DNA of 7,240 nucleotides from Candidatus Bathyarchaeota archaeon (lineage in GTDB: Archaea > Thermoproteota > Bathyarchaeia > 40CM-2-53-6). Shown here in pieces: positions 862 to 7,240 of this stretch (within the stretch, counting starts at the first letter, position 1; the number at the start of each line of letters is the position of its first letter). The position numbers were made by a program, and so were the translations under genes. The stretch spans positions 1-7,240 of the forward strand of contig VBBV01000098.1 of assembly GCA_005883695.1 (NCBI GenBank). Direction: 5' to 3'. The notes below the pieces were generated by a model. The model ran no database searches. It worked only from the letters and a program-made list of their open reading frames with translations, and was not told the DNA's origin.

Positions 862-1265
862 CCACATTAGGTCTCATTGACCCAGACAGGCTAGCACTGT
901 TCCGATACAGCATAGTCACCTGGATCGACAAAGACGGTTTCCCGTTCAGTGTTGCAACAGACTTTATTCTGTCCGAGAACGGCGAGATTCTCCTCAAGAA
1001 ACCCAGCGTCCCTGCAACAATGACCGGCGGCCGAGTCGGAGTTCTCTTCAACCATATTACCGGAATCCCAACGGGGGGCTACACTGACCGTCGCTACATG
1101 CTAGTGTGGGGCACAGTCAGCGAAGATAAGGGATTTCTAAAGCTCCGTCCCGAAGAGGTCTCAGAGTGGGACGAGAAGATTCTGCCGTTCGACAAACTAT
1201 GCGCGGCCGCTGTGCCTCAAGGAAAGAGGTACATAGAGAGCATTCAGCCTTCTATCGACGCCTGA
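858..1265 (+). CDS. FMN-binding split-barrel (pyridoxamine 5'-phosphate oxidase-like) protein, second of a pair
   Basis: About 135 residues, again with split-barrel features. LALFRYSIVTWIDKDGFPFS aligns in character with the start of the preceding protein (x-RY-I-x-(T/F)-x-G-x-P-x-(T/S)), followed by ILLKKPSVPATMTGGRVGVLFNH and YMLVWGTVSEDKGFLKL. I prefer TTG 858 as start. It overlaps the previous stop as TTGA and has GGAGG at 843-847, ten bases upstream. The frame also holds an ATG at 813, but using it would mean a 49-base overlap and an N-terminus (MEERRHLQTRGG) with no family character. The two proteins look like two halves or two paralogous protomers of one flavoprotein. The 3' end overlaps the last gene of the opposite-strand SMC operon by 22 bases, tail to tail. 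Confidence 0.75.
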   Translation: MTTLGLIDPDRLALFRYSIVTWIDKDGFPFSVATDFILSENGEILLKKPSVPATMTGGRVGVLFNHITGIPTGGYTDRRYMLVWGTVSEDKGFLKLRPEEVSEWDEKILPFDKLCAAAVPQGKRYIESIQPSIDA

Positions 1266-1810
1266 TCCTCGTCAACAGGCTCGTTCGTCTCCGCGGAGGG
1301 TGCTTTCGATTCCGCCAGCAGCATCATTAGGCTTGGAAGATCGAGCTCGGCACGAGTCCGCCAGCCAAGCTTGACCAGTCCTTCCTCGTCTTCTTCCAAG
1401 TATCCCGATCGGAGGAATGTGTCCATTAGGGTCAGCGCTCTCCAGCGCCCTGCTTTATTGCCGATGACCATTTCCAATTCCTTCCTTTCGCTCCTCCCTT
1501 GTTTCGATACTACAAGCGCCAAGGCGGCGGCTAAGGCTGCGAGATTGTCGATTCTCCACCCGCAGAGTCTCGCTTCCTTCGGAGCCAGTGTCCCCTTGAG
1601 GCGGACGAAATATCGGGATTCTTCTTCCCCGTCGTCTGGTCCTGGTTTGTAATCAGACAGAGTCTGCGGTTCGACCTTCTTGACTTCGAGGTCCAAGTCC
1701 TTCAGACTCTCATCCAGCTGTTCCAGAACCTTCGTGTACCCCTTTCCAAGTCCTGTTTTCAACTCCCACGATCTTGCACCAGGTACTCTTCCCCGTTTGA
1801 AGAAGAGCAT
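1244..1810 (-). CDS. Tandem winged-helix KITE protein, Nse1/Nse3-like (Smc5/6-type complex)
   Basis: 188 residues from ATG 1810. The layout fits two winged helices. The first (residues 1-75) has helices then a wing, LEVKKVEP...SRYFVRLKG. The second (about 85-157) has LAALAAALALVVSKQG, then RWRALTLMDTFLRSGYLEEDEEGLVKLGWRTRAELD. The closing 'GYL...G-x-(V/I)-x-LG-x-RT-x-x-EL' strongly recalls the winged helix of eukaryotic Nse1 (LGxRTLLEL) and related MAGE/Nse3 proteins. There is no RING, so no Nse1-type ubiquitin ligase module; an acidic tail follows residue 170. KITE proteins dimerise and clamp the kleisin bridging an SMC ATPase, and this gene is third after an Smc5/6-like ATPase and an Nse4-like kleisin. 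The frame stays open upstream with plausible protein (NEPTYYNEKVKRAAH), so the true N-terminus is probably earlier than ATG 1810. Family assignment is by eye. Confidence 0.7.
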   Translation of the reverse strand: MLFFKRGRVPGARSWELKTGLGKGYTKVLEQLDESLKDLDLEVKKVEPQTLSDYKPGPDDGEEESRYFVRLKGTLAPKEARLCGWRIDNLAALAAALALVVSKQGRSERKELEMVIGNKAGRWRALTLMDTFLRSGYLEEDEEGLVKLGWRTRAELDLPSLMMLLAESKAPSAETNEPVDEDQASIEG

Positions 1811-1857
1811 GTGCGCTGCTCGCTTGACCTTTTCATTGTAGTAGGTTGGTTCGTTCT

Positions 1858-2652
1858 TTACTTCGCCCGTATCAAAACCTCCTTTGTGATGGGGATGGGA
1901 AAGCTGAGCGGTGATCCTTCGGGGTGAGGATCAGGATTTGCTTTCGGGACCAAGAGCAAGCTGTCCCCCCCTCGGTGCAAATTCGCGTATCCGTAGCTGA
2001 CGAGAAAGCTGACAAGTTGGGCCCGAGCGATAGTCTCAGCAAAGTCCGACCCTCTGATAAAGTTCCAGTAGTCCGCCCTCTCGTCCTTTGCGGCGCTCTC
2101 CTTGAGCTCCTTCCAAAGGTCCTGCATTTTTCTTGTGAACGCCTTCTCCTCGACCACGCGCATTCGCGCCAGTTCCCCAAAGTCAGTCGCATCAGGGCCG
2201 ACGAAGGGTCCAAGGTGAAGCCTCTTTCTTCGCTCGAAGAACGAAAGCATCCCTTCCCAAAATTCTTTCGCCTCCTTGGTCGACGCTAGCGTGAGCTGTT
2301 CCAGCTCCACTATCGGGTGCCATGAGAGGAGGAGAAACTCTGCCAATTGTTCTCTCGAGAGTGAATCGAGCTTCTGTTGTACCATGCTAGGGTCGACAAA
2401 GAGGGCGCTGGACTGGAATCTGAGATTCGCGCTCTGCAACCCTACAACCCTAGCCACGCTAGTGATGGCTCGCATATCGAGTAGATGGTCATCTAGCGTG
2501 CGCAACTGGTTCGAGTGTCGTCGTATGATCCGGAGAGCTTCAGTGATGTCCAAGAGGAACGGGTTGAACCTGCGGTTCTCGATCGAGACACAAGTCTGAA
2601 TCAATTCCTCCAATTCTCGTCGTCCAGACGATCGGCGGACCTTCTCCGCCAT
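1858..2652 (-). CDS. Nse4-like kleisin of an archaeal Smc5/6-type complex
   Basis: 264 residues, ATG start two bases after the SMC stop, with AAGGAG at 2669-2664 inside the SMC gene's end. Two segments resemble the eukaryotic kleisin Nse4. N-terminal residues 12-96 (ELEELIQTC..., then LRTLDDHLLDMRAITSVARVV, ALFVDPSMVQQKLDSL) follow the Nse4 pattern of a helix, 'LD-x-x-LL' and an 'F-D-x-x-x-(F/V)-x-x-KL' helix that contacts the SMC neck. C-terminal residues 195-237 (YWNFIRGSDFAETIARAQL, then VSFLVSYGYANL, SLLLVP) match the Nse4 C-terminal winged helix, 'F-x-F-I...F-x-x-T-(V/I)-E-x...SFL-V-x-x-G', which binds the other SMC head. The middle (110-190) is helical and charged, where KITE binding would be expected. 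It is shorter than eukaryotic Nse4 (300-400). Order and position between the SMC and KITE genes support the role. A generic ScpA-type kleisin is the alternative. Confidence 0.72.
   Translation of the reverse strand: MAEKVRRSSGRRELEELIQTCVSIENRRFNPFLLDITEALRIIRRHSNQLRTLDDHLLDMRAITSVARVVGLQSANLRFQSSALFVDPSMVQQKLDSLSREQLAEFLLLSWHPIVELEQLTLASTKEAKEFWEGMLSFFERRKRLHLGPFVGPDATDFGELARMRVVEEKAFTRKMQDLWKELKESAAKDERADYWNFIRGSDFAETIARAQLVSFLVSYGYANLHRGGDSLLLVPKANPDPHPEGSPLSFPIPITKEVLIRAK
1870..1885 (-). promoter_or_regulatory. Strong Shine-Dalgarno (AAAGGAGG) pointing to an upstream, non-canonical start of the KITE gene
   Basis: On the minus strand AAAGGAGG runs 1885-1878 inside the 3' end of the kleisin gene. 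Seven bases further, in the KITE frame, is ACG (1870-1868). No ATG, GTG or TTG occurs in that frame between here and ATG 1810, although it is open and protein-like. ATG 1810 itself has only a weak GGT about 16 bases upstream. Either ACG 1870 starts a 208-residue protein, or a base error hides a normal start. Confidence 0.4.
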
Positions 2653-2654
2653 AG

Positions 2655-4682
2655 CTATGTTAGCTCCTTGACGATGGAACTGCCCTCGACGTTCTGGACT
2701 ACGATAACGTGGACATTGTCCTCTGGAAGTGTCACCTGTCCAGGGGTTATAGCGATGTACTGGCTCGAGTCTGTGGCTTTTGCAGCGGCATGGATGAGCT
2801 TGGATACTGTCTCCCGGTTTCGTGGGTCCATGTGAACGTCGAACTCATCGATTGCCCGGAAAGGAGATGAGATGAATTGTTGTAGCGAGAGGAGAAACGC
2901 GATGAGTGCGACCGTGCGTTCGCCCCCACTTGGGGCTAGACCGTCCAGTGAGACTGGCTCGTTTCCCTTGAACCCTGCGTAGAGCTCAAGGCCCGCCTTC
3001 TCAATATCTTTGGAGGCTTTGATGACGATTCGTCCCTTTGATTCCACCTCCGAGAGCAAAGCGTTGTATCTTGCGGAGAGTTCTTCAAGCAACTTGTCCA
3101 TGACAGTTTTCCATCGGTCGAAGCGTTCTCTCAGTTCGCCGAGGACTTCGGACCTGTTCTGCTCTACAACCTCAGCTTTCTTCTTTACATCCTCGTAGAG
3201 GTCTCCATAGTTCTTGTACATCTTCTCCACTTCCGCGGAAAGATGCGCTAGTGGACGTAACCGTTCTTGAACGGAGGCGACGTCTAGTGATATCTGTTGG
3301 AGGTCTCTGGGATCTTCGAATACCGGTCCGAGCTGAGAAGCCTGCGTTTTAAGGGGTTCAATTTCCTCTTGGCCAATGCGAAGCTGGACCTCGAGTTCTT
3401 GAACCTCCTGTTCCATCAACGCGAGCTTGAAGTTGCTGACCTCTTTCTTGACTCTCGATTCTATGAGGAGGTCGGTATTCTTGCCGAGTTGTGAGGTCAG
3501 CTCGGTAATCCCTATGCGTACTTTCTCGAAGTCGTGATCGGCTGTCTCGGCAGTGTTCGAAATTTTCTCATGCTCTTCAACTAGGTCCGATAACACCTGA
3601 CTCAGCTGGTCGTTCTCTGCTGCCAAGCTCACATCACGAGCTTTTTGCTGAAGCGTAGTCAAGACTTCCTGCTGCGTCCGAAGGAGATCAGTGACTTTTG
3701 AGATCCATTCCAATGAACCGGCTCGAAGGCCACGACCGTGCTCAAGCTTCAGATGTTCTTCCCTAAGTTCTTCCAGATCTACAGAGACCCTTGCGAGGTC
3801 GGTCAGGACCTGTTGGTGTTGTTTGTGAGATGTTTCGAACTCTTCCCTCGTTTCCACCATCTTGCCTTGCAGGGAGGAGATTCGGTCTTTCACCCGTTTT
3901 TGTGAGGATTCTCTTCTGATGATACGTCTCCAGATGAGTTCTCTCTGGAGGTCCTTGAACTGGTCTTCAAGTTTCCTCTTCAGCTCATACTTCTCGTACT
4001 CCCGCTGCCAGTGCAAATAGGTCTCTTTCGTGCCCTCCAGGACTGAAGACATTGTCTCTCGTTCAGTCGTGAGTTTCTGCAATCGAGAGGATGCCTCGAG
4101 TACTTCTCGACGATAAGCTGCAAACCCCACGGCATCTTCCAGAAGGAGTAGCTTGTCTATCGGGCTAACTGAGCCGAATCGTCCGACCATGAGCTGGTGC
4201 ATGATGACCAGCATGTTGTCAGGGTTGAGTCCTATCCTAGATAGTCCGTCGACTAGGTTGATCTTGCTGATTGGTTTGTTGTTGAGCAAGTAGTGATAGT
4301 CTCCCGACCGCTTGAGAACTCTGGTTAGGAGCACCTTGTCAGATCTGGCTTGTGGAAACGGTCTTCCACCTTTCGGTGCTTCGTTGTCCAGAAGAAGAGA
4401 GATGCGCGCTTCTTGTTCGTTCCAGCGTATGAGCTCACTGAGTTTTTTCGCTCGCTCAGTGTAAGCTTGGCCTAGGACGACGGAGATTGCGAGCAGTATG
4501 GAAGATTTTCCCGCTCCGTTTGGACCGATGATCAAGTTTAGGCCAGCCCGAAGCGGGATGCTTGTGTTCTTGTAGGACATGAAGTTGGAGAGTTGGACTT
4601 CGCGGATCAATTTCCTACAGGCCAGCCTTGTTATTGGATAGTATTGACTTGGCTGAATTAGAAGTCTTTCTCGTCCAATCAA
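2655..4682 (-). CDS. Short SMC ATPase with Smc5/Smc6-type head motifs
   Basis: 675 residues from TTG 4682. The N-terminal head has NFMSYKN (33-39), Walker A GPNGAGKS (53-60) and a Q-loop in NPDNMLVIMHQ (Q163). Coiled coil runs about 195-508. The C-terminal head has signature PSGGERT (584-590), Walker B with SPFRAIDEFDVHMDP (606-620; D612, catalytic E613, D-loop D619) and a switch region QYIAITPGQ (641-649). 'PFR-x-(I/L/V)DE-F-D-V-x-MD' and 'ITP' in place of the usual switch His are Smc5/6 hallmarks; canonical SMC and Rad50 differ. No 150-residue hinge and no CxxC zinc hook are seen, and length is about 60% of Smc5/6. A single gene implies a homodimer. It should act at DNA by ATP-driven engagement with the two downstream products. 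TTG 4610 (residue 25, just before IREVQLSNF) is perhaps the truer start, since SMC proteins usually begin at that strand and the only TATA element overlaps 4685-4692. Confidence 0.93.
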   Translation of the reverse strand: MIGRERLLIQPSQYYPITRLACRKLIREVQLSNFMSYKNTSIPLRAGLNLIIGPNGAGKSSILLAISVVLGQAYTERAKKLSELIRWNEQEARISLLLDNEAPKGGRPFPQARSDKVLLTRVLKRSGDYHYLLNNKPISKINLVDGLSRIGLNPDNMLVIMHQLMVGRFGSVSPIDKLLLLEDAVGFAAYRREVLEASSRLQKLTTERETMSSVLEGTKETYLHWQREYEKYELKRKLEDQFKDLQRELIWRRIIRRESSQKRVKDRISSLQGKMVETREEFETSHKQHQQVLTDLARVSVDLEELREEHLKLEHGRGLRAGSLEWISKVTDLLRTQQEVLTTLQQKARDVSLAAENDQLSQVLSDLVEEHEKISNTAETADHDFEKVRIGITELTSQLGKNTDLLIESRVKKEVSNFKLALMEQEVQELEVQLRIGQEEIEPLKTQASQLGPVFEDPRDLQQISLDVASVQERLRPLAHLSAEVEKMYKNYGDLYEDVKKKAEVVEQNRSEVLGELRERFDRWKTVMDKLLEELSARYNALLSEVESKGRIVIKASKDIEKAGLELYAGFKGNEPVSLDGLAPSGGERTVALIAFLLSLQQFISSPFRAIDEFDVHMDPRNRETVSKLIHAAAKATDSSQYIAITPGQVTLPEDNVHVIVVQNVEGSSIVKELT

Positions 4683-4692: not shown

Positions 4693-4725
4693 CGCGATTT
4701 GACATTTTTCGCCTTTCGTTGGAGT

Positions 4726-4974
4726 GTGCCAGGTGCGGGATTAAGACGGCTTGGCAAAGTTCTGCACATGTCGAAAAGCGGTAACCTGATTGTCCGGCTC
4801 GAACAACCACCCGTACCAGCTGAGCGCACTGGAGTGGTCGATTACAAGATCAAGAGGATCGGGACTGTTAACAATATTCTCGGTCCTGTGAGGAGTCCAT
4901 ATGTCTCCGTAAAGCCGGAGGCTGCGGGAGAAGGGTTCTCGGGTAGAGTTCTATACCTTTTAGAGGATAATTAG
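4726..4974 (+). CDS. gar1: H/ACA ribonucleoprotein subunit Gar1
   Basis: 82 residues from GTG 4726. It matches archaeal Gar1: LRRLGKVLHMSKSGNLIVRLEQPPVPAERTGVVD, then KRIGTVNNILGPVRSPYVSVKP. The 'RLGKVLH-x-x-x-SGNLIVR' opening and 'IG-x-V-x-x-I-x-GPV-x-x-PYV-x-V-KP' core are family signatures of the small six-stranded barrel. Gar1 binds Cbf5 in the H/ACA RNP and controls substrate loading and release during guide-RNA-directed pseudouridylation of rRNA. I chose GTG 4726 because box A at 4685-4692 places the transcript start near 4715. TTG 4699, the longest frame, would lie before it and adds residues not seen in the family. The gene sits 14 bases before tfb, an arrangement known in several archaea, and probably shares its transcript. 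Confidence 0.93.
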   Translation: MPGAGLRRLGKVLHMSKSGNLIVRLEQPPVPAERTGVVDYKIKRIGTVNNILGPVRSPYVSVKPEAAGEGFSGRVLYLLEDN

Positions 4975-4988
4975 GGGAACGGGAAAAA

Positions 4989-5948
4989 GTGGTTGAAGAA
5001 GTAGGCCAGACGCTAGAACGGGCACCTGAGAGCACCTCGCGGAGGATACGATTGTGTCCAGAGTGCGGGGGCTCGCGGCTCATGAGAGACTATGACGCTG
5101 CTGAGGTCGTCTGCATGGCTTGTGGGTATGTTGTTCAGGAGAAGATTGCTGACACGCGCCCCGAGTGGCGCGCGTTTGACGACGAGCAGCGAGCGAAGAG
5201 AGCTCGCACGGGCGCGCCTATGACGTACACGATTCATGACAAGGGACTCTCTACAATCATCGACTGGCGTGATCGCCCTACCGGGACGAAGGGTGTCTCA
5301 GCGGATCAACGGATCGAGCTGTACAAGCTGCGAAAGTGGCAGCGTCGTGTCCGGGTTTCGGATGCGACGGAGCGGAACCTGGCTGTGGCATTGTCGGAGC
5401 TGAGCAAGTTGTCATCGGCTCTCTCTCTGCCGAAGAATATTCTCGAGACTGCGTCTGTGATTTATCGCCGTGCGATCAAGAGGCGTTTGATCCGTGGGAG
5501 ATCGATTCACAATGTTACGGCTGCAGCGATTTACATGTCGTGCCGGCAGTGCGGCATTCCGCGGACTCTGGATGAGATTGCTAGTGTGTCGACGCTGAAC
5601 AAGAAGGATATTGGTCGTAGCTACCGGTTTATGCTGCGGGAGCTGGGGATGTTTGTGCCGCCCTCCGCGAACAGGAATTATGCGGCGCGGTTTTCGAACA
5701 AGCTGACGATATCGGGGAAGGCGGAAGGGATCGCTATCAGGATCTTGGAGATCGCGCGTCAGATGAAGCTGACCAGCGGTCGGGGTCCGGCGGGGATCGC
5801 GGCCGCGTCCACGTACATTGCGACGGTGTTGACGAATGAGCGGAAGACGCAACGGGAGATTGCGGAGATAGCGAACGTGACCGAGGTTACTATTCGGAAC
5901 CGGTACAAGGAGCTTCTTGAGAAGCTGATGATAGAAGTCCCGATATAG
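4989..5948 (+). CDS. tfb: Transcription initiation factor B (TFB, archaeal TFIIB)
   Basis: 319 residues, GTG start, with AGGGG at 4973-4977 upstream. The zinc ribbon is complete (C23, C26, C42, C45: LCPECGG...CMACG) and recruits RNA polymerase. The B-reader and linker follow, PEWRAFDDEQRAKRARTGAP, with the conserved HDKGLSTIIDW (83-93). Two cyclin-like repeats (about 125-215 and 222-315) bind TBP and DNA. The second ends in the BRE-reading helix-turn-helix TQREIAEIANVTEVTIRNRY (287-306). All key parts are present, and the length is typical (about 300-320), so it should be a functional general factor that places polymerase at TATA/BRE promoters such as those seen in this window. It follows gar1 by 14 bases. 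The gene is not obviously a diverged paralogue, but whether the genome has others cannot be seen. Confidence 0.96.
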   Translation: MVEEVGQTLERAPESTSRRIRLCPECGGSRLMRDYDAAEVVCMACGYVVQEKIADTRPEWRAFDDEQRAKRARTGAPMTYTIHDKGLSTIIDWRDRPTGTKGVSADQRIELYKLRKWQRRVRVSDATERNLAVALSELSKLSSALSLPKNILETASVIYRRAIKRRLIRGRSIHNVTAAAIYMSCRQCGIPRTLDEIASVSTLNKKDIGRSYRFMLRELGMFVPPSANRNYAARFSNKLTISGKAEGIAIRILEIARQMKLTSGRGPAGIAAASTYIATVLTNERKTQREIAEIANVTEVTIRNRYKELLEKLMIEVPI

Positions 5949-6013: not shown

Positions 6014-6118
6014 CTGTTTTCGGAAGCTGTTTCAGAAAATGGTTTCTAGAACCTTTTCCAAATTGCGTTTCAGAAACCTGTTTCAGAAGCCGATTTCAGG
6101 AACCGGTTTCAAAAGTGG
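6014..6118. repeat. Tandem 13-bp repeat array, consensus near GTTTCAGAAACCG
   Basis: Units begin at 6016, 6029, 6042, about 6054, 6067, 6080, 6093 and 6106, with a weak ninth at 6118. Spacing is 13 bases with one 12/13 slip. The best units are GTTTCAGAAAC (6067-6077), GTTTCAGAAGC (6080-6090), GTTTCTAGAAC (6042-6052) and ATTTCAGGAAC (6093-6103). Each unit is an imperfect dyad, GTTTC-x-GAAAC. There are no spacers of unique sequence, so this is a minisatellite-like or operator-like array and not a CRISPR. Confidence 0.85.
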
Positions 6119-6553: not shown

Positions 6554-6595
6554 GACATACGTTATAGCGCGCGAGCCTGATGACGTATGTCATAT
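6550..6595. promoter_or_regulatory. Perfect 13-bp inverted repeat at the rhodanese promoter and start codon (operator candidate)
   Basis: ATATGACATACGT at 6550-6562 is exactly complementary to ACGTATGTCATAT at 6583-6595. The gap is 20 bases, and the stem extends three more pairs if one U-G wobble is allowed. Each arm region also contains its own dyad: ATGAC-ATAC-GTTAT at 6552-6565 and ATGAC-GTAT-GTCAT at 6580-6593, 28 bp apart. The left site touches the TATA element and the right one covers ATG 6587. This fits a repressor with two operator sites. If an upstream transcript runs through, it could also form an RNA hairpin hiding the start codon. Confidence 0.75.
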
Positions 6596-7240
6596 GCACA
6601 CCCCGAAGTATTGGTAAGCAGTGACTGGGTACAACAGCACCTCAACGATCCTAAGGTAAGGATTGCAGAGGTGGACTACGACCCGGTTGCGAACTACCAG
6701 CTGGGCCATGTTCCCGGCGCGGTCCTCTTCGACTGGCGGAAGGACCTCAACCATCCCCTCGAAAGAGACATCCTATCAAAAGAACAATTGGAAGAGCTAT
6801 TCGCCAAGTCCGGAATCGCACTCGATACTAAGATCGTCCTCTACGGCGATTTCAACAACTGGTTCGCAATACTACGGCGTCAAAAATGTCGTACTCATGA
6901 ACGGCGGACGGAAGAAGTGGATCGAAGAAGACAAACCACTAACCAAGGACATCCCCAATTACCAACGCACCGCCTTCAAGGCATCAGGACCTGATGAGAG
7001 CGTTAGAGTCTATTTCAAACAGGCTCTCGACCTTTATCGGAAACCTAACGTGAGGCTGGTTGACGTGAGAGGACCGAAAGAGTTCACGGGTGAAGTCCTA
7101 GCGCCACCAGAGTACCCGACAGAACATGCACAGCGTGGAGGCCACATACCGGGCGCGATCAACATTCCATGGTCCCAAGCTGTCCGAGAGGACGGCACGT
7201 TCAAGAGCCCAGAGGAGTTGAGGAAGCTCTACGAGGACAA
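6587..7240 (+). pseudogene. Two-domain rhodanese (thiosulfate sulfurtransferase), frameshifted and cut by window end
   Basis: The start is MSYAHPEVLVSSDWVQQHL. Domain 1 shows YQLGHVPGAVLFDWRKDL and KIVLYGDFNNWFA, the sulfurtransferase motif in which Asp replaces Cys in the inactive first domain. The initial frame then degenerates and stops at 6994. From 6870 the homology continues in the +1 frame: YYGVKNVVLMNGGRKKW, then VRLVDVRGPKEFTGE and GGHIPGAINIPWSQA, open to the window end. Relatives carry about eight residues (of the type AYALWVFT) between 'NWFA' and 'YYG' that are missing here, so a deletion near 23 bases at 6868-6870 explains both the loss and the frame change. The family transfers sulfane sulfur from thiosulfate or mercaptopyruvate through a Cys in domain 2, which lies beyond the window. 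It is either a recent pseudogene or an assembly error. The flanking sequence is otherwise intact, arguing for a young or artefactual lesion. Confidence 0.8.

Follow-up and report, generated by a model that had tools for sequence, protein, structure and literature searches.

An archaeal SMC-kleisin-KITE gene set without a detectable SMC hinge that resembles the Smc5/6 core

Three adjacent genes on the minus strand of a contig assigned to a Candidatus Bathyarchaeota archaeon (GenBank assembly GCA_005883695.1, contig VBBV01000098.1; the whole 7,240-nucleotide stretch analysed is referred to as the window) encode, at positions 1244–4682, an SMC ATPase similar to Smc5/6, an Nse4-like kleisin and a KITE protein similar to Nse1/Nse3. 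The three proteins likely form a small ATP-driven DNA clamp lacking a hinge, a reading to which we give a probability of roughly 70%. The gene set is an SMC-kleisin-KITE variant without a detectable hinge that stands on the Smc5/6 side, and by analogy it likely works like a minimal Smc5/6. It is not a member of Smc5/6 as this complex is defined, because a hinge, a second SMC, a second KITE and a RING domain were each looked for, in the searches described below, and not found.

The ATPase motifs of the SMC protein are intact (GPNGAGKS, SGGE and the Walker B region PFRAIDEFDVHMD) and a PDB search with the window sequence alone places Smc5 at the top (2.5e-32). The comparison was repeated with a deep profile of 46 rows (A7) against the whole PDB and with a control profile of 18 canonical SMCs from the host genomes (A8), the rankings being drawn from the best 60 of 125 and the best 60 of 272 matches, respectively. 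The tables give molecule names; the organisms named here are those from which we take the chains to derive. The top three matches of A7 are yeast Smc6 (9.3e-71), yeast Smc5 (7.3e-68) and human SMC6 (5.2e-67). An archaeal Smc chain comes next (9.9e-59), narrowly ahead of human SMC5 (7.8e-58), and Smc2 (2.6e-49), Smc3 (4e-43), Smc1 (2e-39), Smc4 (2e-36) and Rad50 (about 1e-15) rank lower. The control gives the reverse order, with archaeal Smc and full-length Smc1–4 chains (9.2e-129 to 4.5e-85) far above Smc5 (1.8e-45 to 4e-31) and Smc6 (about 1e-27).

The head domains were also placed in a tree of 43 taxa that included 21 rows of the archaeal family (two of them long forms, described below), one Smc5 and one Smc6 sequence, the N-terminal head only of Smc2 and Smc3, and three Rad50-like rows as outgroup; L158, which is wrongly labelled Rad50 and fell inside the short SMCs, was left out together with nine further rows. 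The split that unites the family with Smc5 and Smc6 has an SH-aLRT support of 98.1 and an ultrafast bootstrap (UFBoot) support of 99, and the approximately unbiased (AU) test rejected a grouping of the family with canonical SMC (p 0.015) and, narrowly, one of Smc5/6 with canonical SMC (0.047); the family itself is supported at 73.8/88. The head thus groups with Smc5 and Smc6, although a grouping of the family with Rad50 was kept by the same test (p 0.158), and neither the tree nor the A7 and A8 rankings place it within the canonical SMC clade. As judged from these comparisons the affinity of the SMC to Smc5/Smc6 is good; the tree does not distinguish a stem from a sister position of the archaeal proteins. 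The original prediction of a minimal Smc5/6 "ancestor or relative" therefore holds with regard to the resemblance of the three subunits, whereas the word "ancestor" finds no backing in the tree and a hinge is not detectable.

The kleisin was assigned by profile comparisons. The best Pfam match of the window protein is Nse4_C (E 0.16). With the limit set at E<=1, this family is also matched by 14 of the 15 close relatives (best 2.1e-4); in a diverse set of 46 rows, 20 match it at E<=0.1 (best 3.5e-7). In the PDB as a whole, the kleisin deep profile (A5) first matches EID3 (2.3e-5), which we take to be an Nse4 paralogue, and Nse4 (6.4e-5), and then ScpA (0.02); a control ScpA profile from three host genomes matches ScpA and Rad21, and finds no Nse4 in the PDB at E<=10. 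The kleisin and ScpA profiles are related (95%, 191 columns), as expected for two kleisin branches, and the profile link to ScpA and Nse4 extends over the N- and C-terminal parts. Profiles and control together point to an Nse4-type kleisin, the window protein taken singly being below the Pfam cut-off.

The best matches of the KITE profile in the whole PDB are a MAGE-domain protein (0.096) and Nse1 (0.14 and 0.17). An AlphaFold model computed from 95 rows, with 16 conserved codons upstream of the first ATG included, predicts a tandem winged helix (pLDDT 82.6); another model, from 13 close relatives and the 188-amino acid start, reached a pLDDT of 55.9 and was set aside. Foldseek with the predicted fold returned four matches at E<=0.001, all of them chains of Nse1–Nse3 entries, so that the protein appears to have the tandem winged helix of the KITE superfamily in its Nse1/Nse3-type form. 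No RING domain turned up when 41 KITE rows were compared with Pfam at E<=0.1, and in the part that was modelled the fold is that of a tandem winged helix. The deep profiles of all three proteins are thus nearest the matching Smc5/6 subunit in the PDB, the SMC and ScpA controls behaving in the opposite way, and the Smc5/6-type subunit identities first proposed are borne out.

The gene set is not confined to the window. Among 80 GTDB loci, the best of 125 found in a genome scan, the order SMC, kleisin, KITE occurs in 71, and because it recurs in so many loci from other genomes the gene set is more than a chance arrangement; conservation of gene order in other archaea, which had been proposed as a check, is thereby confirmed. 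The other nine comprise seven truncated at a contig end and two with a long SMC form. One locus, L001, from a soil Bathyarchaeota metagenome-assembled genome, encodes an SMC 96% identical to that of the window. Other genes intervene between SMC and kleisin in L021 (one of the 71), and the operon can split: in at least two further genomes, G229 (L129) and G252 (L128), the SMC gene lies about 9–10 kb from the kleisin gene on the other strand, kleisin and KITE both being away from it. The distances in the gene trees of 69 loci are congruent (r 0.85–0.89), which indicates co-inheritance, not contact.

In 300 genomes from the phylum of the L001 genome, which we take to be Thermoproteota, the kleisin profile was found in 134 and the KITE profile in 125; both occur in 124, a strong kleisin match only in two and a KITE match only in one. 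The kleisin matches of eight of the 134 genomes are weak (E 4.4e-5 to 9.7e-4) and, among the matches listed, C-terminal, and were read as ScpA. All but one of the 125 KITE-positive genomes have a single KITE match, while in the remaining genome the KITE is split into two pieces. For the phylum of G016, the host of a locus titled Hadesarchaea (L032), 22 of 28 were positive at E<=1e-8, the match covering almost the full profile in 19, and carriers of the gene set also include loci titled Thermofilaceae and Thermofilales. The window and the tabulated operons show one SMC, one kleisin and one KITE, with no second SMC or KITE, and this content fits the one-SMC, one-kleisin, one-KITE composition originally read from the window. 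A hinge match was found elsewhere in 28 of 39 host genomes and in none of the other 11, which are draft assemblies; from 18 of the 28, full-length canonical SMCs were retrieved, three of which (L138, L140, L141) are beside a ScpA match. PF02616 (ScpA) was matched in eight of the 39 genomes, in seven over the cut-off, and the weak C-terminal matches of the kleisin profile suggest that more hosts have ScpA than PF02616 reveals. On these hinge and ScpA counts, most of the hosts have another SMC system besides the short SMC set.

The absence of a hinge was deduced from protein lengths and profiles. The SMC hinge family PF06470 has no match at E<=1 in the window SMC; four short relatives and two long ones gave none at E<=0.01. 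The 46 short SMCs are 572–697 amino acids long with 169–304 residues between the heads, compared with 733–798 residues in the 18 canonical SMCs; as the Pfam hinge model alone spans 116 positions, a hinge plus arms of ordinary length do not fit in, and the family is described as SMC without a detectable hinge. A zinc hook CxxC between the heads, a feature of Rad50, was found in none of the 46. Long forms occur in two of the 80 loci, L067:1657-4860 (1067 amino acids) and L068:2941-6060 (1039 amino acids); they have a CDKCGS (CxxC) motif in the middle of the coil and no hinge match, and neither a kleisin nor a KITE was found beside them. They look like a Smc5/6-type head on a seemingly Rad50-type zinc hook. 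Genome G034 encodes a long SMC as well as a short SMC with kleisin, and since it has both forms the long SMC is a paralogue there.

The genes around the operon provide some indication of its function. An Lhr-family helicase (identified on four examples) is present in 35 of the 80 loci; in 21 cases it is convergent to the KITE gene and no more than 61 bp from its end. A topoisomerase IB (identified on one example) is located upstream in nine, all titled Methanomethylicota or members of it. A conserved protein of about 227 amino acids is encoded near the operon in 27 loci, mostly divergent upstream of the SMC gene, and the two examples scanned have no Pfam match. These counts refer to loci related by descent, not to independent events, and to flanks of different lengths.

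The window is archaeal in content, as its Gar1 and TFB genes indicate, and the coordinates of its main features are given in Table 1. The original prediction of three same-strand genes, the first two 2 bp and the next 47 bp apart, agrees with the open reading frames, and only the gene starts are in need of revision. Many close relatives of the window SMC are listed as shorter (651 or 641 amino acids) and a length of 651 corresponds to the TTG at 4610, which may be the start in place of that at 4682. In relatives that have the window's GTAA junction, conservation of the KITE frame reaches beyond the ATG by 16 codons (back to 1858), and since these conserved codons encode most of the first helix, the KITE start probably lies upstream of 1810. 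At this kleisin-stop/KITE-start junction (1858–1861, minus strand) L009 has a GTGA overlap, and the window, L001, L002, L005 and L007 have GTAA, which lacks the usual KITE GTG start, yet the next 16 codons are conserved. Downstream of the TFB gene, positions 6027–6111 contain degenerate tandem repeats of GTTTCAGAAACCG. On the plus strand, a rhodanese-type protein at 6587–7239 changes frame part-way and looks frameshifted or mis-assembled, and a pair of overlapping open reading frames occurs at 382–861 (weakly PNPOx-like, below the cut-off) and 813–1265, the latter convergent with the KITE gene and overlapping its end by 22 bp.

Table 1. Positions of the SMC-kleisin-KITE genes and their motifs in the window, and of a conserved neighbour in two other loci
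Feature	Position	Strand	Remarks
SMC ATPase, Smc5/6-type, hinge not detectable	2655..4682	-	675-amino acid open reading frame from TTG; start may be TTG at 4610
Nse4-like kleisin, 264 amino acids	1858..2652	-	C-terminal part matches Nse4
KITE, Nse1/Nse3-like tandem winged helix	1244..1810	-	188 amino acids from first ATG
In-frame KITE extension, conserved, 16 codons, most of first helix	1811..1858	-	Upstream of ATG
Walker A GPNGAGKS	4503..4526	-	SMC residues 53-60
ABC signature SGGE	2919..2930	-	SMC residues 585-588
Walker B PFRAIDE, then FDVHMD	2844..2864	-	Aligned with DEFDVFMD of Smc6
Conserved protein of about 227 amino acids, examples	L072:2407-3090; L070:4246-4917	-

The gene set is proposed to act as an ATP-driven DNA clamp, probably in repair or topology, on account of its homology to Smc5/6 and of the Lhr and topoisomerase IB neighbours in other loci. 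In passages of two papers on Smc5/6, Nse4 links the Smc5 head to the Smc6 neck and loading proceeds via DNA clamped on the ATP-engaged heads (PMC10191858, PMC10512200). By analogy, two copies of the short SMC would pair through their ATP-engaged heads and the kleisin would bridge the pair, its N-terminal part on one neck and its C-terminal winged helix on the other cap, while a pair of KITE proteins from the one gene would occupy the middle of the kleisin, holding duplex DNA atop the heads, the DNA being released or ratcheted upon ATP hydrolysis. Without a hinge no large hinge-closed ring would form; the clamp would be kept and the ring would be absent or weakly closed via the coiled-coil tips. 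A hinge-free, head-engaged state is plausible because yeast Smc5 and Smc6 sub-complexes from which the hinge was removed are described as still associating with ATP when hydrolysis is blocked (PMC8327961, in part). The likely job of such a clamp would be the handling of joined, looped or over-wound DNA in replication and repair, alongside Lhr and, in some lineages, topoisomerase IB. A further claim, which we regard as evenly balanced, is that archaea possessed the entire Smc5/6 core (a single SMC, an Nse4 and a KITE from which both Nse1 and Nse3 descend) before eukaryotes arose, and that the present widespread archaeal lineage works hinge-free and ring-free as a pure ATP-driven head-and-kleisin DNA clamp.

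Several observations weigh against the Smc5/6-like clamp. The window kleisin and KITE are each below the Pfam cut-offs when taken singly, the KITE sequence reaches Nse1/Nse3 chains of the PDB only at E 0.1–0.2, and the TM-scores of its model to Nse1/Nse3 chains are only 0.51–0.59 among the best four matches where the root-mean-square deviation is below 6. The top Pfam match of the window KITE is TY-Chap3 (0.016, versus 0.11 for Nse1), a family that, with E<=1 as the limit, is also matched by 11 of the 13 close relatives; this identity was dropped because only two of 41 diverse rows match it at E<=0.1. In the head tree, besides the Rad50 grouping kept by the AU test, Smc5 and Smc6 are not grouped together, branches are long and each of the two is represented by one sequence. 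Finally, the window lacks the Lhr and topoisomerase IB neighbours on which the repair role rests, having instead Gar1 and TFB genes (4699–5948) upstream of the operon.

The resemblance to Smc5/6 could be that of a deep side branch of the KITE-based SMC complexes, hinge-free and working in the same manner, which would be uninformative about the origin of Smc5/6. The low resolution within the clade (the support of the family itself and the separate Smc5 and Smc6 branches) and the faint KITE sequence match fit such a branch, which we nevertheless consider rather unlikely, given that each of the three subunits matches its Smc5/6 counterpart first and that both controls do the opposite. Alternatively, the ATPase might be a Rad50- or RecN-like repair enzyme whose likeness to Smc5/6 heads reflects retained ancestral features and long-branch effects; its short architecture without a detectable hinge, the AU result for Rad50 and the zinc-hook-like CxxC of the two long relatives are in line with this, but the ATPase is linked genetically with a kleisin and a KITE, partners that Rad50 complexes lack according to passages of PMC10586767, Rad50 chains trail Smc5/6 by over 40 orders of magnitude in E-value and the split with Smc5 and Smc6 is well supported, making this explanation improbable.

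About equally improbable is an anti-plasmid defence system of the Wadjet/MksBEF type or a Lamassu-like ATPase system, which would share the SMC-kleisin-KITE logic and to whose PADLOC ATPases the SMC is generically similar (mad3 best at 4.2e-32, LmuB 1.4e-15), but no JetD was seen, the kleisin and the KITE have no PADLOC match (including JetA and JetB) and no Pfam nuclease is present among the nine window open reading frames. A divergent canonical Smc-ScpA(B) condensin that lost its hinge is the least probable explanation, even though the kleisin and ScpA profiles are related, ScpA chains rank next after Nse4 and the 11 host assemblies without a hinge match might depend on the short SMC set alone, because most hosts have a hinge-bearing SMC elsewhere (18 of these full-length and canonical, three beside ScpA), the PDB ranking is the reverse of that of canonical SMCs and the AU test rejects the canonical grouping.

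If the gene set works as the Smc5/6-like clamp proposed here, it offers a simple and tractable relative of Smc5/6 with which the origin of this complex becomes testable, as well as a natural experiment on the purpose of the SMC hinge and long arms; a hinge-free clamp would mean that an SMC-kleisin-KITE motor needs neither, and the archaeal clamp may show the pre-eukaryotic form of the Smc5/6 DNA-repair machine.

The SMC subunit itself is already known: an archaeal "SMC5/6-related" SMC clade has been published (Yoshinaga and Inagaki, 2021, as cited in PMC9389158 and PMC10003631), which groups with Smc5/6 and is presumably the same ATPase family as the short SMC. The passages concerned treat the SMC subunit only, and the words kleisin and ScpA are absent from the text of PMC9389158. 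Among the papers listed in the literature searches, none was met that identifies Nse4 or Nse1/Nse3 partners in archaea or points to the missing hinge of this clade, most subscription papers and bioRxiv preprints being outside the search; the partners, the operon and the missing hinge would be the additions made here, and the 2021 paper may say more. A SMC with head and coiled coil and without hinge or zinc hook has also been reported from marine Actinobacteria (PMC12153180); unlike the archaeal protein, it is bacterial and branches near actinobacterial SMC, and the words kleisin and SMC5 do not appear in that paper.

Compared with the eukaryotic Smc5/6-Nse4-Nse1/Nse3 core, the archaeal set lacks a detectable hinge, its arms are far shorter, and it has a single SMC gene in place of two and a single KITE, without a RING match, in place of two; Nse2, Nse5 and Nse6 were not seen in the window, no genome-wide search for them having been made. 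Both have an SMC, a kleisin and a KITE, and the best profile matches of all subunits, the best fold match of the KITE and the Smc6-like Walker B link the archaeal proteins to this core. With archaeal and bacterial Smc-ScpA(B) the set shares the kleisin superfamily and the ATPase head, whereas the hinge-bearing SMC is a separate gene in most hosts and archaeal Smc-ScpA reportedly has no kite (PMC7055376). The SMC-kleisin-KITE composition is also common to Wadjet JetABCD, MksBEF and MukBEF, from which the archaeal set differs by the lack of a visible JetD, partners without a PADLOC match and a KITE fold nearer to Nse1/Nse3.

Passages of PMC7055376 argue that archaeal Smc works without a kite and state that smc, scpA and scpB were not detected in Crenarchaeota; archaea, including those of the Thermofilaceae- and Thermofilales-titled loci, here gain an SMC-kleisin-kite set undetected in that study. 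In the part of the review PMC10512200 concerned, the KITE-based SMC complexes listed are eukaryotic Smc5/6 and prokaryotic Smc-ScpAB, MukBEF/MksBEF and Wadjet, and a passage of PMC12153180 states that SMC complexes are absent from Thermoproteota. The archaeal gene set extends the former list and runs against the latter statement.

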